Shown here: piece after piece, positions 11,336-25,220 of the stretch
Numbering within the stretch: the stretch's first letter is position 1
Layout: each line of letters begins with the position of its first letter
NCBI RefSeq assembly: GCF_000622365.1
Contig: NZ_JASC01000007.1
Location: 1 to 64,000, forward strand
Direction: 5' to 3'
From: Sulfitobacter noctilucae
GTDB taxonomy: Bacteria; Pseudomonadota; Alphaproteobacteria; Rhodobacterales; Rhodobacteraceae
DNA length: 64,000 bases
Program-made: the position numbers and the translations under genes
Notes under the pieces: generated by a model
Database searches by the model: none
Told to the model about the DNA's origin: nothing
What the model saw: the letters and a program-made list of their open reading frames with translations, nothing else

Positions 11336-12322
11336 ATGGCACGTGGTGAATTGATGAAAAAACTATTGCTCAACTACGGACGCGACGATGAGTTTCGCGC
11401 CGTCGTAGAACAGATCATCAAAGAAGAAGAAAACAAGAACAACCGCGTGCTTGCCAAAGGGTTGCGCAAAGCTCTGGACGGTTTGTCCAGCGACGTTGGG
11501 CCCAAAGAGCTCAGCCGATTGGTGCCCTTCCCAGATGACGCCAACGAGTTCATCCAGCGGGTTGAGCCGCGCTTTAGCCCCGAAGACATCCAGCTCAACA
11601 TCGAAAACGTGAGCCTGTTCACAGGCCTGATCGATGAGTATCGCAAGAGTGACATGATCAAACGGAACGGCTTGCCAGTGCGATCCAAGCTCCTTTTTTG
11701 CGGTCCGCCAGGTACTGGAAAAACTCTCTGCGCCGAGATCTTTGCAGGACAGCTGGGGCTACCCTTTTTTCACGTCAAGCTGGACCGTCTGATCTCTTCG
11801 TTCCTAGGTGAGACCGCGACTAACATCCGCAAGACCTTCGAATTCGCCAGACGTCAGCCGTGTGTCCTCTTCTTTGACGAGTTCGACGCTCTTGCCAGCT
11901 CGCGCGCAGAAGGAAACGACCACAGCGAGTTGCGACGCGTCGTCAATTCCCTGCTCATCTTCATCGATCAGATCCAACCCAGCGGTTTTCTTATTGCGGC
12001 CACGAACCTCGATGACCAACTTGACCCTGCAATTTGGCGGCGGTTTGACGAAGTTGTCTGGTTTGACCATCCCGATGAAACCATGACCCGGAAGTACCTC
12101 GTCAATGCGATGAAGAACGCCAAGTTGGACTTCGATATCGAAGATATGGTCCAGAGCACAACTGACTACTCCTACGCAGAGCTCGAAAAAATCTGCAATC
12201 AGGCCAAAAAGCTTGCGGTGCTGGCCCGCCGCAAAACGATTTCAAAAAAGCATTTTAGGGAAGCCATTCGATATGCCGATCGACGTCGCATGCGCATCCG
12301 GAAACTAACCCGTAAAGCGTGA
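11336..12322 (+). CDS. ietA: AAA family ATPase, IetA-like
   Basis: 328 aa, start 7 bp after AGGAGGT. It has one AAA domain: Walker A GPPGTGKT at residues 123-130, Walker B FFDEFDAL around residue 181, sensor region AATNLDD and arginine-finger region WRRFDEVVWF. The first 100 residues are helical and family-specific. With the subtilase gene that follows after 8 bp it matches the ietAS pair first described on Agrobacterium plasmids as a stability and incompatibility module and later listed among anti-phage systems. By analogy the ATPase controls the protease. Confidence 0.85.
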   Translation: MARGELMKKLLLNYGRDDEFRAVVEQIIKEEENKNNRVLAKGLRKALDGLSSDVGPKELSRLVPFPDDANEFIQRVEPRFSPEDIQLNIENVSLFTGLIDEYRKSDMIKRNGLPVRSKLLFCGPPGTGKTLCAEIFAGQLGLPFFHVKLDRLISSFLGETATNIRKTFEFARRQPCVLFFDEFDALASSRAEGNDHSELRRVVNSLLIFIDQIQPSGFLIAATNLDDQLDPAIWRRFDEVVWFDHPDETMTRKYLVNAMKNAKLDFDIEDMVQSTTDYSYAELEKICNQAKKLAVLARRKTISKKHFREAIRYADRRRMRIRKLTRKA

Positions 12323-12330
12323 GATGATCT

Positions 12331-14673
12331 TTGCCCCAACATCAGCACCTGCCTTTGGTGCGCCTTCCTGAAAGTTTTGACCGTCGCAAGCATGGCATGG
12401 TGCCCGCCGCTCCTGGCCGCGGCGGCGGGCATGGTGGACGTGTTCGTCAAGAAATTGATCGTGCCGTTCAGGAGCAACGCGCGCAACAACGCCCGCCGCG
12501 TTTTGTAGACCCCGCGCTCATCCTGCGCGTCGAAATGAGTGGGGCAACGATGGAGGAGGATTGGGAAGGTCTTGGACTGACAGTTCTGTCAACAGATGAT
12601 GACAATACTCTTGTTCTTTTCGCGTCCACTGACGATCTGCAGGACTTTCGCTACCGGCTGAACGAATACGAGGGGCCTATTCCCAACGGACAGCTCAATC
12701 GGCGATATGCCGGATTTATCGACCGGATTGGCGATATCGCAACCGTCGCTCCACGCGACAGGATTGGTGTTCGCGCGCGTGAAGACGGGTTCGTCGAGGC
12801 AGGAGATTTTCAGGATGATACCGAATATGTCGTCGACATTGAGCTCTGGGAATTTGGTCCGCCACAAGCCCGCCGCAACTTCGGCGAAGAGATCGTGGGT
12901 TGGGTCGAAGAACAGAATGGTGAGCTTTACGACCTTTACTCCGGTCCATCGATCACGCTTCTGCGTGTGCGGGCTCGAGGCCAAACAATCCGTCCTATCC
13001 TTGCGATCCCCCAAGTTGCTTTTGTCGATTTTCCACCGCAACCGGACATCGTTGCTGAAGCCCCTGAGGACTTCGCACTTGGAGATTTGCCACCCGTCGC
13101 CGAAGAAGTTGACGATTTGCCCATCATTGGCATTCTCGACAGCGGCGTGAATGACAATCCGCTTCTTGTAGACGGTATTGTAGCCCAAGAAGGGTTTCCC
13201 GAGGACGCGCTTGGAACGGCCGATGTTTACGGCCACGGAACCCCGGTCGCCGGCATGGCCCGGTTCGGCGATCTGCGTCAGCAACTGGACCTGCCCGCGC
13301 TGCAGCCCGCCGCCCGTATTGTTTCAGCAAAGGTGGTCACCGATCAGGGTCAATTCTATGACCGCCGAACACTGCCAACGCAGATGCGGATCACAATTGA
13401 GCGTTTGCGCAATACCTACGGATGTCGGCTCTTTGTTATATCTTTGGGCGATGTGCGTGCCAGGTTCGAACGCGGCCGGGTCGGGCCATGGGCCACGACC
13501 CTTGATGAATTGGCCCGTGAGCTTGATGTTGTAATCTTCGTTTCCGCTGGAAACCGAGATCCCCGTGGCGGCAACACGCTTGAACAGGGCGTTACCCAGT
13601 ATCCGCGTTACCTTCTTGAAACTGCAAATCGGGTTTGTGAGCCAGCGGGCGCTGTGAACGCCGTTACCGTCGGATCTATTGCGAACTCCAACGGGCTTGG
13701 TCCGCAACACGAGTTTGATGCGCATACTCAAAACATCACCGAGGCAGACGAACCCTCGCCATTTTCCCGCGCGGGACCTGGCGGCGGTGGGATTAAGAAA
13801 CCGGATTTTGTCGACTATGGCGGCACGTTGGTCTTTGATGCTGTGGGGCGGCGTTTGCAACGCGCCCCTGCCCTTCCCAATGCTGGTGTCCTAACCACCA
13901 ATGGAGATTTCCAGCGACAGCTCCTCGTCAGCAAGACCGGCACGTCTTTCGCAGGACCCCATCTCGCCCACAAGGCTGCCCAAATCCTAAGAACCTTACC
14001 CGATGCATCCGCTAACCTCGTGAAAGCACTGATGGCAGGGTCCGCCCATGTGCCTGAAGCAACGCTGCAGCGCCTCAATGGAATCGCAGATGTCGAACGC
14101 GAACAGATCTTTGGAAATGGTCTCGTGAATGCGGCCAAAGCCAGTTATTCTGACGATCATCGGGTCGTCCTTTACGCTGAAGACAGGCTTGGGATGGATC
14201 AGTTTGCCGTTTATCAAGTGCCGATCCCCGGCGATTTTCAAGGCAACGGCCCGCGCCGACTACATGTGTCCATGGCATTCGATCCGCCTGTGAAACGTAC
14301 GCGGGCCGAGTATATAGGCACGCGGATGAACTATCGTCTGATCCGAGGGTGCCCGGCCGATCAGGTCTTCGAACATTTCCGGTCGCATACCGGTGCGGAT
14401 ACTGAGCCGCCAGAGATCGAAGGACGGTACAATTGTAAGCTAGAGCCTGGGCCCAAGCGGCGTGATCGCAACACGATCCAGACTTCAAGCGTCAAATTCA
14501 CCCAAGACACCGCCCAATACGGCAATGATTACTTTCTGGTGGTGCGCTGCGTCGGTGGATGGGCTTCCGATGAAGAAGTCCGTCAAAACTACGCGATTGT
14601 TGTCGAGCTAGAACACGAAGCTCAAGTTGCGCTTTATGCTCGTCTGCAACAGCGGGCCCGCGTGCAGGTCTGA
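12331..14673 (+). CDS. ietS: Subtilisin-like S8 serine protease, IetS-like
   Basis: 780 aa with a TTG start, chosen because the N-terminus (LPLVRLPESFDRRKHG) matches the usual beginning of this family. There is no signal peptide, so it acts in the cytoplasm. The catalytic triad can be placed: Asp270 in ILDSG, His302 in GHGTPVAG and Ser539 in GTSFAGP. The first 250 residues are an N-terminal domain with a Gly-rich segment (PGRGGGHGG), and the last 180 form a C-terminal domain with a few cysteines. It sits in one operon with the AAA ATPase; together they form a plasmid-stability or defence pair. Confidence 0.87.
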   Translation: MPQHQHLPLVRLPESFDRRKHGMVPAAPGRGGGHGGRVRQEIDRAVQEQRAQQRPPRFVDPALILRVEMSGATMEEDWEGLGLTVLSTDDDNTLVLFASTDDLQDFRYRLNEYEGPIPNGQLNRRYAGFIDRIGDIATVAPRDRIGVRAREDGFVEAGDFQDDTEYVVDIELWEFGPPQARRNFGEEIVGWVEEQNGELYDLYSGPSITLLRVRARGQTIRPILAIPQVAFVDFPPQPDIVAEAPEDFALGDLPPVAEEVDDLPIIGILDSGVNDNPLLVDGIVAQEGFPEDALGTADVYGHGTPVAGMARFGDLRQQLDLPALQPAARIVSAKVVTDQGQFYDRRTLPTQMRITIERLRNTYGCRLFVISLGDVRARFERGRVGPWATTLDELARELDVVIFVSAGNRDPRGGNTLEQGVTQYPRYLLETANRVCEPAGAVNAVTVGSIANSNGLGPQHEFDAHTQNITEADEPSPFSRAGPGGGGIKKPDFVDYGGTLVFDAVGRRLQRAPALPNAGVLTTNGDFQRQLLVSKTGTSFAGPHLAHKAAQILRTLPDASANLVKALMAGSAHVPEATLQRLNGIADVEREQIFGNGLVNAAKASYSDDHRVVLYAEDRLGMDQFAVYQVPIPGDFQGNGPRRLHVSMAFDPPVKRTRAEYIGTRMNYRLIRGCPADQVFEHFRSHTGADTEPPEIEGRYNCKLEPGPKRRDRNTIQTSSVKFTQDTAQYGNDYFLVVRCVGGWASDEEVRQNYAIVVELEHEAQVALYARLQQRARVQV

Positions 14674-15007: not shown

Positions 15008-15296
15008 GAAAATGAAGCGCCAGCTTATCCCTGCTTTGCGTCACGATATCTCTCCATGCTTGTAGTATCGAACCTCGCCTTGGTCAGCCAGCTCCACAGC
15101 CCAAACTCATCTTCGCTTCCGTCCTGATGTGCCGCTCTTTGGAATTCGGCCAATCCCTAGCCCGAACCGTGACAAACCGTTGCGTCGCCGCAAGGGCGCT
15201 GCCCTTCTCCACTTTGTTGCGCCGCTGCAGGTGCGGCGCCTCTCCTCGGTACTTCATTGGGGCTGCGTCATTACCCGTACCCAAAAGGAGATCAAC

Positions 15297-15455
15297 ATGA
15301 CCAAACTTTTGAAGAAAATCCGCTCTGTTCTTCGGAACATGGCGCACAAGGCAAAAGTGAAACTCAGTGTTGCCTTATCCATTCCGGGCTTCCTGAAGGT
15401 CGAAGTCGAGTACGAAAAAACACTCACACCGCCCGGCAAGCCCGATGAGGCATAA
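15297..15455 (+). CDS. Small protein, unknown function
   Basis: 52 aa, beginning MTKLLKKIRSVLRNM, with an AAAAGGAG ribosome site 6 bp before the ATG and a good terminator just after the stop. The N-terminal half is basic and amphipathic (many Lys/Arg); the C-terminal half is mildly hydrophobic then acidic. It could bind membranes or nucleic acid. The clean start and stop signals support it as a gene; the product is not recognised. Confidence 0.6.
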   Translation: MTKLLKKIRSVLRNMAHKAKVKLSVALSIPGFLKVEVEYEKTLTPPGKPDEA

Positions 15456-15559: not shown

Positions 15560-15820
15560 TCACCCAGAGGTCGATCGCAGCGTGTTGCAGGCGTACATGC
15601 CGATCTCTCCGTCCTGACCCCCGTACGCGATCATTGTCCCTTCAAGCATTTCCTGCCCTTCGGCAATCGCCATTGCGCGTATTTCGACAGCGTCATCAAT
15701 TTCCTGAAAAGACGCGAAAGCTGATGCATGGCAATCGGCTTCAGCCGCAAAATCGAGGTTTGTGTGCAGTTCCGAACCCGTTTCGAAATTGAACACGACG
15801 ATGATCAAAAGAACCTTCAT
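15560..15820 (-). CDS. Small protein, unknown function
   Basis: 86 aa starting MKVLLIIVVF, with an AGAAGGCG ribosome site before the ATG. The hydrophobic start is short and may be a signal or a strand. The remainder is acidic and Ala-rich, with two cysteines (DCHAS and YACNT). No family recognised. It is transcribed away from the operator-like motif at 15932-15947. Confidence 0.55.
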   Translation of the reverse strand: MKVLLIIVVFNFETGSELHTNLDFAAEADCHASAFASFQEIDDAVEIRAMAIAEGQEMLEGTMIAYGGQDGEIGMYACNTLRSTSG

Positions 15821-16062: not shown

Positions 16063-16689
16063 ATGAAATTCGATCCATACGAGTATATTGGCGTCGTCGT
16101 GCCGGGTAGCGTTTTGGTGCTTGCGATCGCATTGATTTTTCCCGATCTGGTGCCAAGCATTACGTCGTCCCTCTCTTTGGGAGATCTGGGTCTCATGGTC
16201 ATTTTGGCATTTGTCGCAGGCCACTTCGTGCAAGCTGGTGGAAACCTTTGGGAGACCATTGTCTGGAAACTTCTTGGCGGAATGCCTTCCAGCTCTGTCT
16301 TCAAACCGAATTCTAGATTGCTTTCCCCGGGCCAGCAGGAACGGTTAAAGTCCAAGTTGACTGACGATTTCGGACCTGACGCACGAGAGGGACTTGCGGT
16401 TGGACGTGGTGCGATGAGGGAGCTGTTCGTCAAAGTACGGCAAAGTGGCAGTATTGATCGGATAGAGAAATTCAACCGCAATTATGGCCTTATGCGCGGA
16501 ACTGCGGTTTCCTTCTTGGTTTCCGCAGCACTGGTCTTGGTTTTTGACCCAGATCACACCGAGATCGCGTTGCTTTTGCTTGGTGTCGCTGGAGTATTCA
16601 CATACCGAATGGTTCGTTTCGGAAAGCATTATGCACGCGAAGCGTTTGCCGAATATCTGCGAATTTCTTCTGCCAAAGATACCGACTGA
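16063..16689 (+). CDS. Four-helix membrane protein, unknown function
   Basis: 208 aa from the ATG at 16063, 8 bp after GGAGGT. The N-terminus MKFDPYEYIGVVVPG leads straight into a first membrane segment; a second (LGLMVILAFVAGHFV), third (AVSFLVSAALVLVF) and fourth (IALLLLGVAGVF) follow, with a charged cytoplasmic region of about 80 residues between the second and third. No enzyme motif is seen. It converges on the E2-E1-JAB gene with 13 bp between stop codons. Small membrane proteins in such places are sometimes defence effectors, but this is only a guess from position. Confidence 0.7.
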   Translation: MKFDPYEYIGVVVPGSVLVLAIALIFPDLVPSITSSLSLGDLGLMVILAFVAGHFVQAGGNLWETIVWKLLGGMPSSSVFKPNSRLLSPGQQERLKSKLTDDFGPDAREGLAVGRGAMRELFVKVRQSGSIDRIEKFNRNYGLMRGTAVSFLVSAALVLVFDPDHTEIALLLLGVAGVFTYRMVRFGKHYAREAFAEYLRISSAKDTD

Positions 16690-16702: not shown

Positions 16703-18985
16703 CTATTCCATTGCCGCAATACATGTCTCTTTTTCCCCAACAATGACCATCACGGCTGGACGGCTTTCGGAAGCCAGATCCAGCGCAAGTTCATTGATTT
16801 GCACATGATCGACAAGGCTCGGTGTTGCTGATGCGCCCTTTGGATGGCTGTGCCACTCTCCAACATAAGTTAGCTGATGCATGACGCGCGCTGAGACCTG
16901 ATCAATAGCATCTCTGAGCCCACTTACGCCCCTCACGAACTCGGTTGCTGCAAACGAGCTATCGGCCGGAGGCGGCAGCATATGTGCTATTTCAACTCGT
17001 TTTCGTCTGTGATCAACTATGCCCAAAAGGACGCCTCCTGTCTCGCATGGAAGACCCTGGTCGCGCGCAGACCTAAGTCTTGCCTCGACGGCGGCGGACA
17101 TCCTGATTGTCCAACCGTCGATTTCGACCATAATGGAGCCCGCGGAGACTTTGATGTGCCTATTCTGCAAAGACCCATCGTAACCAATCGTTCCGACAGT
17201 GATTGATGCCGACGGCTCGCTGACGACCTTCCTAATGGATTTTGTTGCAGCTGCCGACAGCAGTGCCGCATCAGATGCGCATAGTCGGTTGCTAACCGAC
17301 CTGCACTGCCCGCTTGAAACTACAACACGATTGGGATCGGAAAGGTGGTCTGCAAAGTCGTCGATTTGAGCAACCTGAGCATAATATTCTGCTTCCAAAC
17401 ATGCGAGATCACAGTGACCAGCCTCATCTTCGGCCAACACAACATAGGCGTTTCCCAACGGGTTGAAAAATGCGGAAACCGCTCGGCCTCGGCTTAGGCA
17501 ATCCGACAAATCGCGGCTTGCCCCGACAGACGCCGTAAAGTCAAATACGATCGAGGAGCTTGAAAGCGCTTGTTGAACCTCTTTGTCAGACTCTGAAGAG
17601 TCCAATTTCGATCCCAGAGCTTTGACAACAAAATCAGCTGAAATGTCTTTGATATGCTTTGCAATCTCAGATGATTTGAGATGGCTGATAGATGACGATG
17701 TTAGAGTATGTCGCGCAAGATTGTGAGGCAAAAGTCTATCGTTATCGATCAACGTAATGCGTTCGAACGCACCTTCTCGTACTAGATTGATTGTGATTTG
17801 GCTCCCGATAGAACCAACACCGAGAATCGTTGCATGTTCTGCAATGAGTTCCAGTCCTGACATTGCTCTTGCGAGATGGTTTTCAAAGGAGCCGAACGAG
17901 TTGGCTGACATGAAGCCAACCTTGGCGAGCGCGTCTGCATCTAGTTCCCCACGCGTAAGCCTCAGAACATAATCACTGCCGACGTCTGGGTCAGGTGGCA
18001 GCAGTATGCCTAGACCTACTGCAATGTCTGCCACGCTTTCACGCGCCATAAGCCAATAGCTCTCATATCTATCTAACTCTGCGTTCCTGATCGCAATGTG
18101 GATGAGCAGATTGGCTGTCTTCAACTTGTCGTGCTCAGCACCTTCTAACGAAGCCCAAAAACTAGAGAGTGTGTCTCTCAGCTGCGTCAGTAGTTCGTTG
18201 TCGGTGCTTGAGACTGACTGACTAAGCTGCCCAAGATTGCTTGGAGGGCGCCACATCGCACCTGTGTTGTTTGCTACACGTGCAAGCGAAACAACGAGAA
18301 ATGGCGTCCAAATCTTACCTTCGTCCGGAGGTGGCGCATCATCGTACGCATGACCAAAATACGTATTGGATCCTTCGTCCCCTTGAACAATTGCAAGGAA
18401 CAACGGATGCGACTCTTGTTCCAGAATTTGTTTTTCTATGGTTGTTCCCACAACGATTGAAGCCGGTGAAGGCAGGAACACTGGGTCTTGGAATTGGAGC
18501 TCATCATCCATGTTTCCTGTGATTGCTCGTCTGAACCAAGACGCAATGCGCCTGACAATCTCTGCGCCATTGTAGTCACTGGAAGCATCTTCCCAAGCGC
18601 GATCATCAATGCACAACGCTACTTGCGCATCCGTGGGGGCGTCAATTTCAAGTCCGAAGGTATGCTTGGTCATGGGAAACGACGGCCGAAGCGAAGCAAC
18701 TGCTGGTGCACTGCCCTTTAGGAACATTACCAAAAGAGATTCAACGGGTCGCACATCATAAGCGGGCTCTTGGTGTGTACCGGTTGGAAACTCAATCTGA
18801 ACACCTTCGACGCCTTCAGAGAGGTCATAGCATCCAACCAAACCAATTTCATCATTGGCATGGTGTTCTATGAATTCCAGAAATGATCGCGCTAGATCAC
18901 TAGTGATCGCCTTCGCAGCCTTCGCCTCCTTATTGATCGAATGAGCGGACGGCTCTTCGCCTTCATTCAGGCTCTCAAGCTCCAC
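16703..18985 (-). CDS. E2-E1-JAB fusion: bacterial ubiquitin-like conjugation and deconjugation enzyme
   Basis: 760 aa with a GTG start 3 bp after the stop of the MBL gene. Three enzyme domains in order. (1) An E2-like domain at about residues 30-175 with catalytic Cys125 in ALCIDDRAW, the form usual in bacterial E2s. (2) An E1/ThiF-like adenylation domain at about 380-600: GVGSIG at 389-394, acidic LIDNDRLL at 412-419, Arg425, and a candidate catalytic Cys561. (3) A JAB/JAMM isopeptidase at about 625-760 with Glu648, HSHP at 712-715, Ser723 and Asp726, all spaced correctly. The parts correspond to Cap2 and Cap3 of type II CBASS and to Bil enzymes, here joined in one chain. No CD-NTase or ubiquitin-like gene is visible beside it. 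Probable role: attach and remove a protein modifier in defence. Confidence 0.87.
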   Translation of the reverse strand: MELESLNEGEEPSAHSINKEAKAAKAITSDLARSFLEFIEHHANDEIGLVGCYDLSEGVEGVQIEFPTGTHQEPAYDVRPVESLLVMFLKGSAPAVASLRPSFPMTKHTFGLEIDAPTDAQVALCIDDRAWEDASSDYNGAEIVRRIASWFRRAITGNMDDELQFQDPVFLPSPASIVVGTTIEKQILEQESHPLFLAIVQGDEGSNTYFGHAYDDAPPPDEGKIWTPFLVVSLARVANNTGAMWRPPSNLGQLSQSVSSTDNELLTQLRDTLSSFWASLEGAEHDKLKTANLLIHIAIRNAELDRYESYWLMARESVADIAVGLGILLPPDPDVGSDYVLRLTRGELDADALAKVGFMSANSFGSFENHLARAMSGLELIAEHATILGVGSIGSQITINLVREGAFERITLIDNDRLLPHNLARHTLTSSSISHLKSSEIAKHIKDISADFVVKALGSKLDSSESDKEVQQALSSSSIVFDFTASVGASRDLSDCLSRGRAVSAFFNPLGNAYVVLAEDEAGHCDLACLEAEYYAQVAQIDDFADHLSDPNRVVVSSGQCRSVSNRLCASDAALLSAAATKSIRKVVSEPSASITVGTIGYDGSLQNRHIKVSAGSIMVEIDGWTIRMSAAVEARLRSARDQGLPCETGGVLLGIVDHRRKRVEIAHMLPPPADSSFAATEFVRGVSGLRDAIDQVSARVMHQLTYVGEWHSHPKGASATPSLVDHVQINELALDLASESRPAVMVIVGEKETCIAAME

Positions 18986-18988
18986 GTT

Positions 18989-20104
18989 TCAACCTGAGCG
19001 TACTGGTTTTGATGTTGAACCTGAACCAGCCACAGCAGGAGACGATAGCGCTAGGCTCACGCCAAAAGCAGTAATGCTGATTTTCGCTGGTTTCTTCGGT
19101 TTGTCCATTGTCACGACGAAATCACCCTTACGTTTGGCTTGAATAGGGCGGTAGTAGGCTGCCGCTTGGCGATGGGGTGGTTGTTTGTCGTCCTCTTTAG
19201 AACCCCTTGTTGGGATCTGCTTGCTTGAAGAAACAATGATTGAACGATCTTGCCCCTGTTCTTCAATCAGCCAAGCTACCTCGGAGACGGGTGTTGTTTT
19301 GTCCACCCCACGGTCATTAACGTTGAGCGCTTTGTACGAGCAGTGGTGGAAGAGCTTCAGCAAATCCCATTCCAATCGGTCTTCGTTACCGTGCCTTATG
19401 GTACTTTTGACAATCTGAGCAAGCGTGTCCGAGTTCACATCTGATCCCAGAAGAGCGCGAGTCTTGCGAGTGCCCTCAATAAAAGTTGCTTGAACGACAA
19501 TAGAATGCTCGTTTCGGATGATTTCATCGTCATCGTCTTGAACCCAGGACAAAGGGCAATGCACAAAAAACTCGACCTTTTCTTCACCTTCGACTGAGTA
19601 GCCTGGAATGGTTTGGCCTGCGTTGACAATGCAATCCTTGCGCGACGCTAACGTGAGCCCCTTGCCCACCAGCCAGTCTTCGAGGATTTTCGGCGAAGAA
19701 AATACACGAACACCTTTGCCTTCTAAGAGTCGGTGTTTTGCCTCTTCGCGCACAAGACGCGAGTCGCGTGTCAATCCTTCTTCAAGGATCGCCGCGGCTG
19801 GCACCCAGAGCTCGTCCACCTTAATTCGGTCGTCATCCTGATATTTCTTGGCGTGTTCGAGCCAAAAGACTTCGCCAAAACCATGACAATGGTCATCGTC
19901 GACATGGGTTATACAGAGCGCCGGAAGTCTATAGGGCGCAGAACCAAGATCATTTTTGATAGCACTCTCAAGATCGAAGTCGATGTCTGAGCTATCGGAT
20001 CGTCCCATATCGGCGAAATCGAAAAGAACGCGTCGCCCATCTGCAAGCGTCAATCGTGTCGTGTCTGCGTTCCCAAGCGGGAAAACTTCAATTGTTGCTG
20101 TCAT
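18989..20104 (-). CDS. MBL-fold metallohydrolase paired with the E2-E1-JAB gene
   Basis: 371 aa, ATG preceded by GGACAGGAAA. The MBL metal site is seen as THVDDDHCHG (His67, Asp69, Asp71, His72), the ComEC/Rec2-like variant; LGSDVN and FHHCS supply later ligands. Such proteins hydrolyse phosphodiesters or other esters, so a nuclease or cyclic-nucleotide role is possible. The C-terminus is a flexible Ser/Pro/Gly tail ending KPVRSG, beyond the folded core. It is the first gene of a two-gene operon with the E2-E1-JAB fusion. That tail is a plausible target for the partner's ligase, as the C-terminus of CD-NTases is for Cap2; this is inference. Confidence 0.82.
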   Translation of the reverse strand: MTATIEVFPLGNADTTRLTLADGRRVLFDFADMGRSDSSDIDFDLESAIKNDLGSAPYRLPALCITHVDDDHCHGFGEVFWLEHAKKYQDDDRIKVDELWVPAAAILEEGLTRDSRLVREEAKHRLLEGKGVRVFSSPKILEDWLVGKGLTLASRKDCIVNAGQTIPGYSVEGEEKVEFFVHCPLSWVQDDDDEIIRNEHSIVVQATFIEGTRKTRALLGSDVNSDTLAQIVKSTIRHGNEDRLEWDLLKLFHHCSYKALNVNDRGVDKTTPVSEVAWLIEEQGQDRSIIVSSSKQIPTRGSKEDDKQPPHRQAAAYYRPIQAKRKGDFVVTMDKPKKPAKISITAFGVSLALSSPAVAGSGSTSKPVRSG

Positions 20105-23369: not shown

Positions 23370-25220
23370 ATGACCAAGCAATCCAAAATCACCGCAACAG
23401 AGGCCCGCTTTCCGCTGGAAAAGCTAACCCTCTCACCCATGAACCCACGCCAAGACGTGCCGGAACATGACGTTATTGAACTCGGAGAGAGCATTTGGGC
23501 CGCTGGTCTTATCCAGTCCATTGCAGGGCTGTCAGGCAAGAAAGATACCGCAGAGATTGTCGCGGGCGGACGCCGTTTGCGCGCCCTGAATTATCTGGCC
23601 GAGCGACACCCAGACTTGGCGACCAAGCGCCCCGAACTGGCAAACCCGATGGTGATGTTGGCCCCTGATGCGGAAACCGCCGAGGCATGGGCCAACATGG
23701 AGAACGTGGCCCGCCGCGATCTACACCCCGCCGAGGAAATCCGCGCCTATGGTAAAATGGAAGCCAAAGGCGGCACCGTTGGGACCATTGCTCGCGCCTT
23801 CGCAGTGAACGAAAAGCACGTCTACCGCCGCCTTGCATTGGCACACCTGCCCGATGCGGTGCTGGACGCACTTGCCGCGAACGAAATCAGCCTGTCCAAC
23901 GCAGCCGCCTTCACGGTCAGCAATGACGAGAAGATGGCCCTTGAGGTCTTGGAGACGGTGCGGGGCGAAGGCTACAGCGATCATCAGATCAAACAGATGA
24001 TCAAACCTGACAGTGTGCGCGGGTCTGACCGACGTGTGATCTACGTGACCGAGGCGGGCTATGACGAGGCCGGTGGCCGCAAGACCGCTGATCTTTTCAA
24101 GGAACAGACCTTCTTTGACGATGTGGCGTTGCTGGACGAACTGTTTGACGCGAAGCTGTCCGAGGCCGTTGAGACGTTGCAAACCGAGGGCTGGAAATGG
24201 ATTGAAGCGATCCATGACAGCTACCTTTGCCACTATAACATGGGGCTTGAGAAGTTTGGCCGGGTCTATGCCGAAGGCGGCGATTTGGCCGAAGAAGAAG
24301 GCGAACGCTACGACGAATTGGCAGCCCTCGCCAATGGTGGCGTGCTGGACGCCGCAGGCGAAGCCGAACTGGCGGTGTTGCAAACGATCATCGACGGGGA
24401 ATACACCGACGAGCAACGCGCTTATGCGGGCCTCTATGTCTATGTGGACGGCAACGGGGTCCAGTCAGTTAGCGGTGCACTGGTAAAGCCAGAGGACAAG
24501 AAGGCCGCGATTGAGGCTGGTGTCCTGCGCAAGTCGATGCATGGCAGCAGCGGCAGCGATGGTCCGAAATCGCCTATCTCGCAAAAGCTGCGCGACGACT
24601 TGAACCGCGTGACCAAAGGGGCGCAACAGCACGCGGCCCTGCGCGATCCTGACCTTTTGATCGACCTTCTGGCCTATCAGTTGAGCCATCACCTGTTCTG
24701 GAATGATCCGTTCGGGATCACGACCACCGAAGTGCCGAATTGGCCCTCTACAGAGGCCGAAGGCTACGCGCTGGACGAGCGACTGACTACAAACCCGCCC
24801 CGTAATATGATGGATTCCAAAGACATTGCCGCATCCTTCCGTGCGTTTCGCAAGAAAGGTGTAGAGCATGTTCGCGGCGAATTGGTGCGGTTCCTTGCCG
24901 CCCAATTCAGGGGCGGCGACGAGAAGCTGCAAGCGCTTGTGGCAAAGTCTACGAAGCCCAACACCCGCGAAGTCTGGACCCCGACAGCGGCGAACTTTTT
25001 CAGCCGTGTGGGCGGTCCCTACATGGTCGAGATTTGGCGCGATCTTCTAGAACTGGCGGAAGATCACCCAACCGTCACCACCTTTGCGAAGCTGAAAAAG
25101 GGCGAGAAGGCCGCGAAGCTGGAAGCCTTGTTCACGCATTCCGACCTGCGCAGTGCTCTTGGTGTCACCGAGGCGCAGGCCGCACGGATCGACGCTTGGT
25201 TGCCCGAAGGCATGGAGTGA
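23370..25220 (+). CDS. Large ParB/Spo0J-like nuclease-domain protein
   Basis: 616 aa. The N-terminal 230 residues are a ParB/sulfiredoxin-type domain and a DNA-binding helix region: PLEKLTLSPMNPRQ, EIVAGGRRLRAL, ENVARRDLHPAEEIRAY and the helix-turn-helix IARAFAVNEKHVYRRLALA. The remaining 380 residues are a long C-terminal domain found in this plasmid branch, with no named function. Proteins of this size are separate from the short partition ParB and occur on alphaproteobacterial conjugative plasmids beside DUF3768 and DUF736 genes. It may bind DNA at a plasmid site or act in replication. No ParA gene lies beside it; the plasmid's ParA is at 36768. Confidence 0.85.
   Translation: MTKQSKITATEARFPLEKLTLSPMNPRQDVPEHDVIELGESIWAAGLIQSIAGLSGKKDTAEIVAGGRRLRALNYLAERHPDLATKRPELANPMVMLAPDAETAEAWANMENVARRDLHPAEEIRAYGKMEAKGGTVGTIARAFAVNEKHVYRRLALAHLPDAVLDALAANEISLSNAAAFTVSNDEKMALEVLETVRGEGYSDHQIKQMIKPDSVRGSDRRVIYVTEAGYDEAGGRKTADLFKEQTFFDDVALLDELFDAKLSEAVETLQTEGWKWIEAIHDSYLCHYNMGLEKFGRVYAEGGDLAEEEGERYDELAALANGGVLDAAGEAELAVLQTIIDGEYTDEQRAYAGLYVYVDGNGVQSVSGALVKPEDKKAAIEAGVLRKSMHGSSGSDGPKSPISQKLRDDLNRVTKGAQQHAALRDPDLLIDLLAYQLSHHLFWNDPFGITTTEVPNWPSTEAEGYALDERLTTNPPRNMMDSKDIAASFRAFRKKGVEHVRGELVRFLAAQFRGGDEKLQALVAKSTKPNTREVWTPTAANFFSRVGGPYMVEIWRDLLELAEDHPTVTTFAKLKKGEKAAKLEALFTHSDLRSALGVTEAQAARIDAWLPEGME

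Follow-up and report, generated by a model that had tools for sequence, protein, structure and literature searches.

Operon type 6a is described in a paper of 2006 by Iyer, Burroughs and Aravind. It consists of a triple-module protein encoded beside a specialised metallo-beta-lactamase (MBL), 'usually with two genes' (PMC1779556). In type II cyclic oligonucleotide-based antiphage signalling systems (CBASS), Cap2 conjugates the cyclase via a C-terminal Gly or Ala, which is conserved where full-length Cap2 and Cap3 are present and not in other architectures (PMC10097602), and Cap3 undoes this conjugation (PMC11153139), while the modifier of the Bil system requires trimming to its Gly (PMC11354881). 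A 2025 review refers to Cap2 as the only known system that activates a protein without the ubiquitin fold (PMC12355090). Here we describe a pair of genes for an E2-E1-JAB triple fusion protein and an MBL-fold hydrolase from Sulfitobacter noctilucae, located in a stretch of 64,000 nucleotides (positions 1 to 64,000 of contig NZ_JASC01000007.1), which is referred to as the window. As suggested by its sequence, the MBL is probably attached whole, via its last glycine, to other proteins by the ubiquitin-type enzyme.

The MBL gene (18989..20104, (-), ATG start, 371 aa) and the fusion gene (16703..18985, (-), GTG start, 760 aa) lie on the same strand, spaced 3 bp apart. The fusion scores 475.2 bits against NF058523 (cut-off 320) and the MBL, the predicted conjugation substrate, scores 356.1 bits against NF058524 (cut-off 220), the two models with which NCBIfam represents the anti-phage 6A-MBL system. 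Because of these models and the type 6a description of 2006, the module itself is no discovery: it is of an already known, named and barely studied kind, the operon type 6a or 6A-MBL anti-phage system, and the novelty that a preliminary description of this DNA had seen in it is not supported. A literature search that left most subscription papers outside found no paper on the name '6A-MBL' and no source behind the NCBIfam name, nor did it find the conserved tail with precursor-like extensions or the exchangeable third gene in print. The 2006 paper does not use the word patatin in its main text.

All three domains of the fusion exceed their Pfam cut-offs. These are the E2 domain (Prok-E2_A, PF14457, residues 61-183, 18437..18805, (-)) with the catalytic Cys125, the E1 domain (ThiF, PF00899, residues 383-586, 17228..17839, (-)) with Arg425 and Cys561, and the JAB/JAMM isopeptidase domain (Prok-JAB, PF14464, residues 631-753, 16727..17095, (-)) with Glu648, His712, His714, Ser723 and Asp726. 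Glu648 is kept in 92 of the 93 aligned fusions and the other seven residues are invariant in all 93, it being noted that these are related sequences and not independent cases. Structure comparison of the fusion model gave fold matches to Cap2 (7to3/7tsx), which include the E1 domain, and to Cap3 (9ild) for the JAB domain. The active-site residues named in the preliminary description were thereby confirmed, and the Cap2- and Cap3-like enzymology proposed there is supported. In the MBL, the metal-binding motif H67-x-D-x-D-H72 (19889..19906, (-)) is present in 94 of 95 aligned rows with one gap, and each metal ligand is kept in 94-95 of the 95.

The evidence for conjugation centres on the C-terminal tail of the MBL. 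Residues 354-371 (18992..19045, (-)), which end in K-P-V-R-S-G, are predicted to be disordered and form the only stretch of the MBL model with predicted local distance difference test values (pLDDT) below 50, in agreement with the flexible tail that had been noticed earlier, and the codon of the terminal Gly371 (18992..18994, (-)) marks the predicted site of adenylation and conjugation. Among the best 120 of 1539 MBL homologues, which include the window's own cluster, 117 carry the motif [RKQ][AGSQ]G with 0-8 residues after it; 106 end exactly at the Gly and 11 have 1-8 residues beyond it. The idea of tail conjugation had from the outset been made to depend on the termini of homologues being conserved and ending in Gly or Ala, and it withstood this check. 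The three homologues without the motif either stop before the tail (P0019 and P0102) or diverge ahead of it (P0032).

The tails were also surveyed at the level of loci, using 84 loci that comprise 4 viral contigs and 80 genome loci, the latter being the best 80 of 358 relatives fetched with the MBL profile by one pattern. The motif was found in 77 of the 84, bare in 67 and with 2-4 extra residues in 10, an example of an extended tail being the -RAG-RNG end in L133. Four loci (L136, L144, L145 and L150) hold it at the expected place in another frame and look like frame disruptions, the MBL of L148 ends before the tail, and that of L160 ends in a differing motif, -GFG plus D. More divergent 6A MBLs end in -GHG, -GYG, -GFG, -KHG or -AHG, to which up to 6 extra residues are added in some cases. 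By way of control, a C-terminal Gly was present in 1 of 22 MBL-superfamily open reading frames (ORFs) below the 6A cut-off from genomes of the same family, these ORFs being mostly similar at their ends and apparently of one family, so that the number of independent cases is below 22. The MBL tree, a quick tree with some long branches, shows at least 10 changes between bare and extended tails. Judged from these termini, the mix of bare and extended tails is the pattern of ubiquitin-like precursors that need trimming by a protease, and the extended tails would predict a proteolytic maturation step. The seventh locus without the motif in frame (L123, 5911-9426) encodes the MBL and the E2-E1-JAB protein as a single ORF of 1171 aa, which may be a natural fusion or a frame disturbance of the assembly.

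Across the 77 loci, the Gly of the motif is encoded by GGC (42), GGT (18), GGG (9) and GGA (8), the Ala by four different codons and the Arg by six, with third positions varying freely. Since the synonymous codons of Gly, Ala and Arg all occur, the constraint lies on the protein and not on a ribosome-binding site. An overlap with a Shine-Dalgarno sequence or start codon as the cause of the conserved R-A-G was ruled out by this codon variety, together with the extensions that shift the motif. Over 157 distinct motif-bearing tails, the entropy was 0 for the Gly, 0.32 for the Arg and 0.74 for the Ala, as compared to 1.4-3.2 for the preceding linker, the low values of the motif resulting in part from the selection of tails by this motif.

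The MBL and the fusion were found to occur together. Both pass their cut-offs in the same 8 of 198 genomes of the family, and among 398 genomes of the phylum the MBL passes in 7 and the fusion in 6 of these 7, the fusion of the seventh (G203) being split by an inserted stretch. In this genome (L178, 2321-7138), the insertion, presumably a transposase gene, separates the E2-E1 part from the JAB part, and a patatin gene comes next. An eighth genome (G399) has a short MBL piece below the cut-off and separate E2-E1 and JAB ORFs. Of the 80 genome loci, 78 contain the fusion, whereas L128 and L148 are cut off by the edge of a contig.

The MBL had been regarded as the only partner of the fusion. Indeed, its gene is the sole same-strand neighbour abutting the fusion gene, but a convergent gene was overlooked, and a third gene is present at most loci. 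In the window this is a gene for a 208-aa membrane protein with hydropathy peaks (16063..16689, (+)), which is convergent with the fusion gene at a distance of 13 bp and represents a candidate effector. Over the 80 loci, the third gene encodes a patatin in 66, a membrane protein in 11 and another protein in one (L079), the remaining two loci being cut by contig ends. The patatins were recognised by clustering of neighbours, which placed one family, a patatin-like phospholipase (PF01734; four members tested), in 66 of the 80 loci, and their genes lie downstream on the same strand in 58, upstream in 7 and convergently in 1. In a wider set of 69 patatin loci, active-site patterns of our own making were found in 66 (nucleophile), 69 (DGG) and 67 (oxyanion). 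No NCBIfam model was matched over its cut-off by the patatin members, and of eight names for this gene in the style of PADLOC/NCBIfam, seven are non-existent.

Fourteen loci lack the patatin, and in 11 of these a multi-helix membrane protein, as defined by a lenient hydropathy rule, is encoded beside the fusion. A profile built from four such proteins (L078, L080, L081 and L082) matches the ORF of the window with an E-value of 1.1e-32, a protein of genome G134 with 4.1e-29 and, weakly, that of L154 with 9.2e-8. The membrane proteins of the window and G134 are 67% identical, as opposed to 26% for the MBLs and 19% for the fusions, which means that the membrane-protein gene has moved between divergent 6A-MBL systems. 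The window-type membrane protein was detected in 3 of the 198 family genomes, each time adjoining a 6A-MBL pair, and in 2 of 385 genomes of the class, namely that of the window and G686, where it is encoded upstream of the MBL. It is thus found beside 6A-MBL genes in all four genomes identified by the family and class searches, a linkage count that covers these four, with 46 further homologues outside it; its gene is located downstream on the same strand, downstream and convergent, or upstream. The MBL tree places the window in a clade of six rows (Shimodaira-Hasegawa-like approximate likelihood ratio test value of 100), five of which are of the membrane type, and it requires that the third gene switched between the patatin and the membrane type at least 7 times, 4 of these switches being forced by well-supported branches. 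The membrane protein of the window has no Pfam name, and the best match in a PDB sequence search had an E-value of only 0.14.

Ten plasmid regions, hand-chosen from 246 matching records, were also inspected for the gene that follows the fusion gene. This encodes a patatin in three (L162, L169 and L179), a multi-helix protein in three (L164, L165 and L167; in L165 a patatin comes next), a second MBL in L166, a transposase in L163 and an unclassified protein in L168 and L180. The third gene of L167 (8489-9082), on a plasmid of Acinetobacter ursingii, encodes a DUF6338 (PF19865) protein, which gives a hint at what this family does. In L163 (6149-10485), a plasmid of Hymenobacter monticola, the fusion gene is truncated, with a gene for a Tn3-family transposase behind it. 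The second MBLs (PF00753) encoded by the third gene of L166 (8492-9562) and of one more locus, L039 (3680-4744), suggest another type of effector.

At the level of sequence, the parts of the system, their intact active sites, the conserved tail, and the linkage and exchange of the third gene are established. We regard it as fairly probable that the 6A-MBL system of the window, which is probably plasmid-borne, works like type II CBASS, with a ComEC-type MBL in place of the cyclase and a membrane-acting third protein. The balance also tips, if slightly, towards the MBL hydrolase serving as a whole modifier, and hence as a second class of substrate without the ubiquitin fold, which in some lineages would be a precursor trimmed by JAB at R-A/S-G, in a module that would parallel CBASS without a cyclase and have an interchangeable slot for a membrane effector. 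In such a mechanism, the JAB domain would trim the MBL tail to its last Gly in those systems that encode a short extension, a step that the tail of the window would not need. The E1 domain would adenylate Gly371 and transfer the MBL via Cys561 and then Cys125 of the E2 domain to a lysine of the target, and JAB would reverse the conjugation, which would thus set the place or the clustering of the MBL enzyme. Upon infection, hydrolase activity of the MBL, probably on nucleic acid or a nucleotide, would signal to the membrane-acting third protein, the 208-aa membrane protein in the window and the patatin phospholipase in most relatives examined, which would damage the membrane. With the tail data, which also single out the exact residue to alter, 6A-MBL becomes a concrete candidate for a second system that activates a protein without the ubiquitin fold, and this is a sharp and testable prediction because the review cited above names Cap2 as the only one.

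Several observations weigh against this mechanism. The MBL is a hydrolase and as such no obvious source of a signal to the membrane protein or patatin, and we infer conjugation, processing, the MBL substrate, the signal from the MBL to the third protein and phage defence itself from sequences and models. How the whole chain is arranged is uncertain in the fusion model, with a predicted template modelling score of 0.67 and a root-mean-square deviation of 30.6 from full-length Cap2, and in the most divergent MBLs the mature Gly was picked by eye (e.g. in -GHG, or in -GFG plus extension). With respect to the third gene, the membrane label in 11 loci depends on the lenient hydropathy rule; by profile, the family of the window holds among these 11 only the profile members L078, L080, L081 and L082 and, weakly, L154. 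Furthermore, the window-type membrane protein family is absent from 5 of the 8 family genomes that have the system, and a second MBL is encoded by the next gene in both L039 and L166. Lastly, the third gene of the window is off the transcript of the pair because it is convergent.

The main rival, which we consider unlikely though worthy of attention, holds that killing is done by the MBL itself, as a ComEC-like nuclease gated by conjugation and by release through JAB, and that the third gene merely helps by providing anchoring, a target or immunity. However, the third gene encodes a patatin or a membrane protein in 77 of the 80 loci and therefore looks like an exchangeable effector slot, and this alternation points to the third gene as the killing part, for which it supplies a candidate mechanism. 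In addition, the tail is the only part of the MBL model below the pLDDT threshold given above, which is unlike gated nucleases. Bil attaches its ubiquitin-like protein to phage proteins and thereby spoils them, and the MBL could likewise be a bulky modifier of phage proteins. The conserved tail and the complete E1-E2 relay would suit this purpose, but the near-invariant metal ligands would be needless for a mere tag and a membrane-acting third gene would be superfluous, so that we regard this possibility as improbable. The least probable view is that the tail is no conjugation site but either signals translation of the next gene or serves the fusion for docking or regulation. It can draw on the likely fusion start codon that closely follows the MBL stop in most of the loci listed and on a CAGG located 11 to 8 bases before the GTG start in the window. 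It conflicts with the use of all four Gly, four Ala and six Arg codons, with the extensions that separate the motif from the stop and with the variable preceding linker, although a docking role would be compatible with these data.

The CBASS-like mechanism is favoured over these alternatives, and a CapW-type regulator beside some of the loci also speaks for it. WYL-family proteins are encoded in 14 of the 80 loci and Peptidase_M78-family proteins in 24, as determined by neighbour clustering. The sole WYL protein tested matches CapW of S. maltophilia (E 7.8e-67), and the helix-turn-helix (HTH) peptidase proteins resemble CapH+CapP in architecture only, their HTH part weakly matching an unnamed HTH structure (7t5u, E 0.0024). 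CapW and CapH+CapP are described as regulators responsive to DNA damage that are found beside Bub operons and CBASS alike (PMC13373217). A scan of the ORFs beside the pair of the window revealed no regulator of the CapW or CapH+CapP type and no gene for a ubiquitin-like protein, 10 short ORFs around the system having no Pfam match over the cut-off. The neighbour clusters of the 80 loci were examined by family for the patatin, WYL and HTH/peptidase members. Other clusters consist of short ORFs, mostly on the opposite strand, and are taken for shadow ORFs; the larger of them occur in 29, 22, 20, 19, 19, 18 and 18 of the 80 loci. The absence of a cGAS/DncV-like nucleotidyltransferase beside the pair, as stated in the preliminary description, agrees with the absence of the SMODS domain (PF18144) from the whole genome in a search that was positive in E. 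coli and covered this cyclase type alone. A search for SAVED matched nowhere and is therefore uninformative.

The contig of 85,272 bases is probably a plasmid that carries a small defence island, because it encodes a RepA-type initiator (PF10134; 20273-21328, (-)), located upstream of the pair, and a ParB-like protein (23370-25220, (+)). PADLOC identified an anti-phage pair of IetA (an AAA ATPase) and IetS (an S8 protease) at 11336-14673 (+), about 2 kb from the 6A-MBL genes. On the Hymenobacter plasmid pHA (L168), genes for an ATP-binding protein and an S8 peptidase lie directly upstream of the 6A-MBL pair. Two short ORFs between the defence genes of the window (15129-15455, (+), and 15560-15820, (-)) have no Pfam match over the cut-off.

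In comparison with known systems, the locus has the same domain order and adjacent MBL gene as 6A-MBL and type 6a, and passes both NCBIfam cut-offs. It differs from the type 6a of 2006, described as 'usually with two genes', by the third gene, which is of the patatin or membrane type in 77 of the 80 loci and convergent in the window. With the MBL pro-nucleases of AVAST, Hachiman, Lamassu and DRT (defence-associated reverse transcriptase) systems it shares a ComEC-like MBL in a defence system, as indicated by model matches. Those pro-nucleases are cut by proteases at disordered insertions, whereas the MBL considered here, paired with an E1-E2-JAB protein, bears a tail that is conserved and conjugation-like. 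As regards gating of the HamM/Avs1a type, only the tail falls below pLDDT 50, the abutting genes do not encode trypsin-like peptidases, and the S8 protease IetS is encoded about 2 kb away. Like Bil and Bub, the system combines the E1, E2 and JAB of one pathway. From type II CBASS it is distinguished by an MBL instead of a cyclase, the lack of a SMODS (PF18144) match genome-wide, an operon of MBL and fusion only, a fused JAB and MBL tails that sometimes bear short extensions. It resembles type II CBASS in the Cap2-like fold and active sites of its E2-E1 part, in its Cap3-like JAB, in the phospholipase or membrane protein nearby, in the CapW-type regulator of some loci and, as read from the protein sequence, in an enzyme without the ubiquitin fold that has a conserved C-terminal Gly, the counterpart of the Gly or Ala in CBASS.

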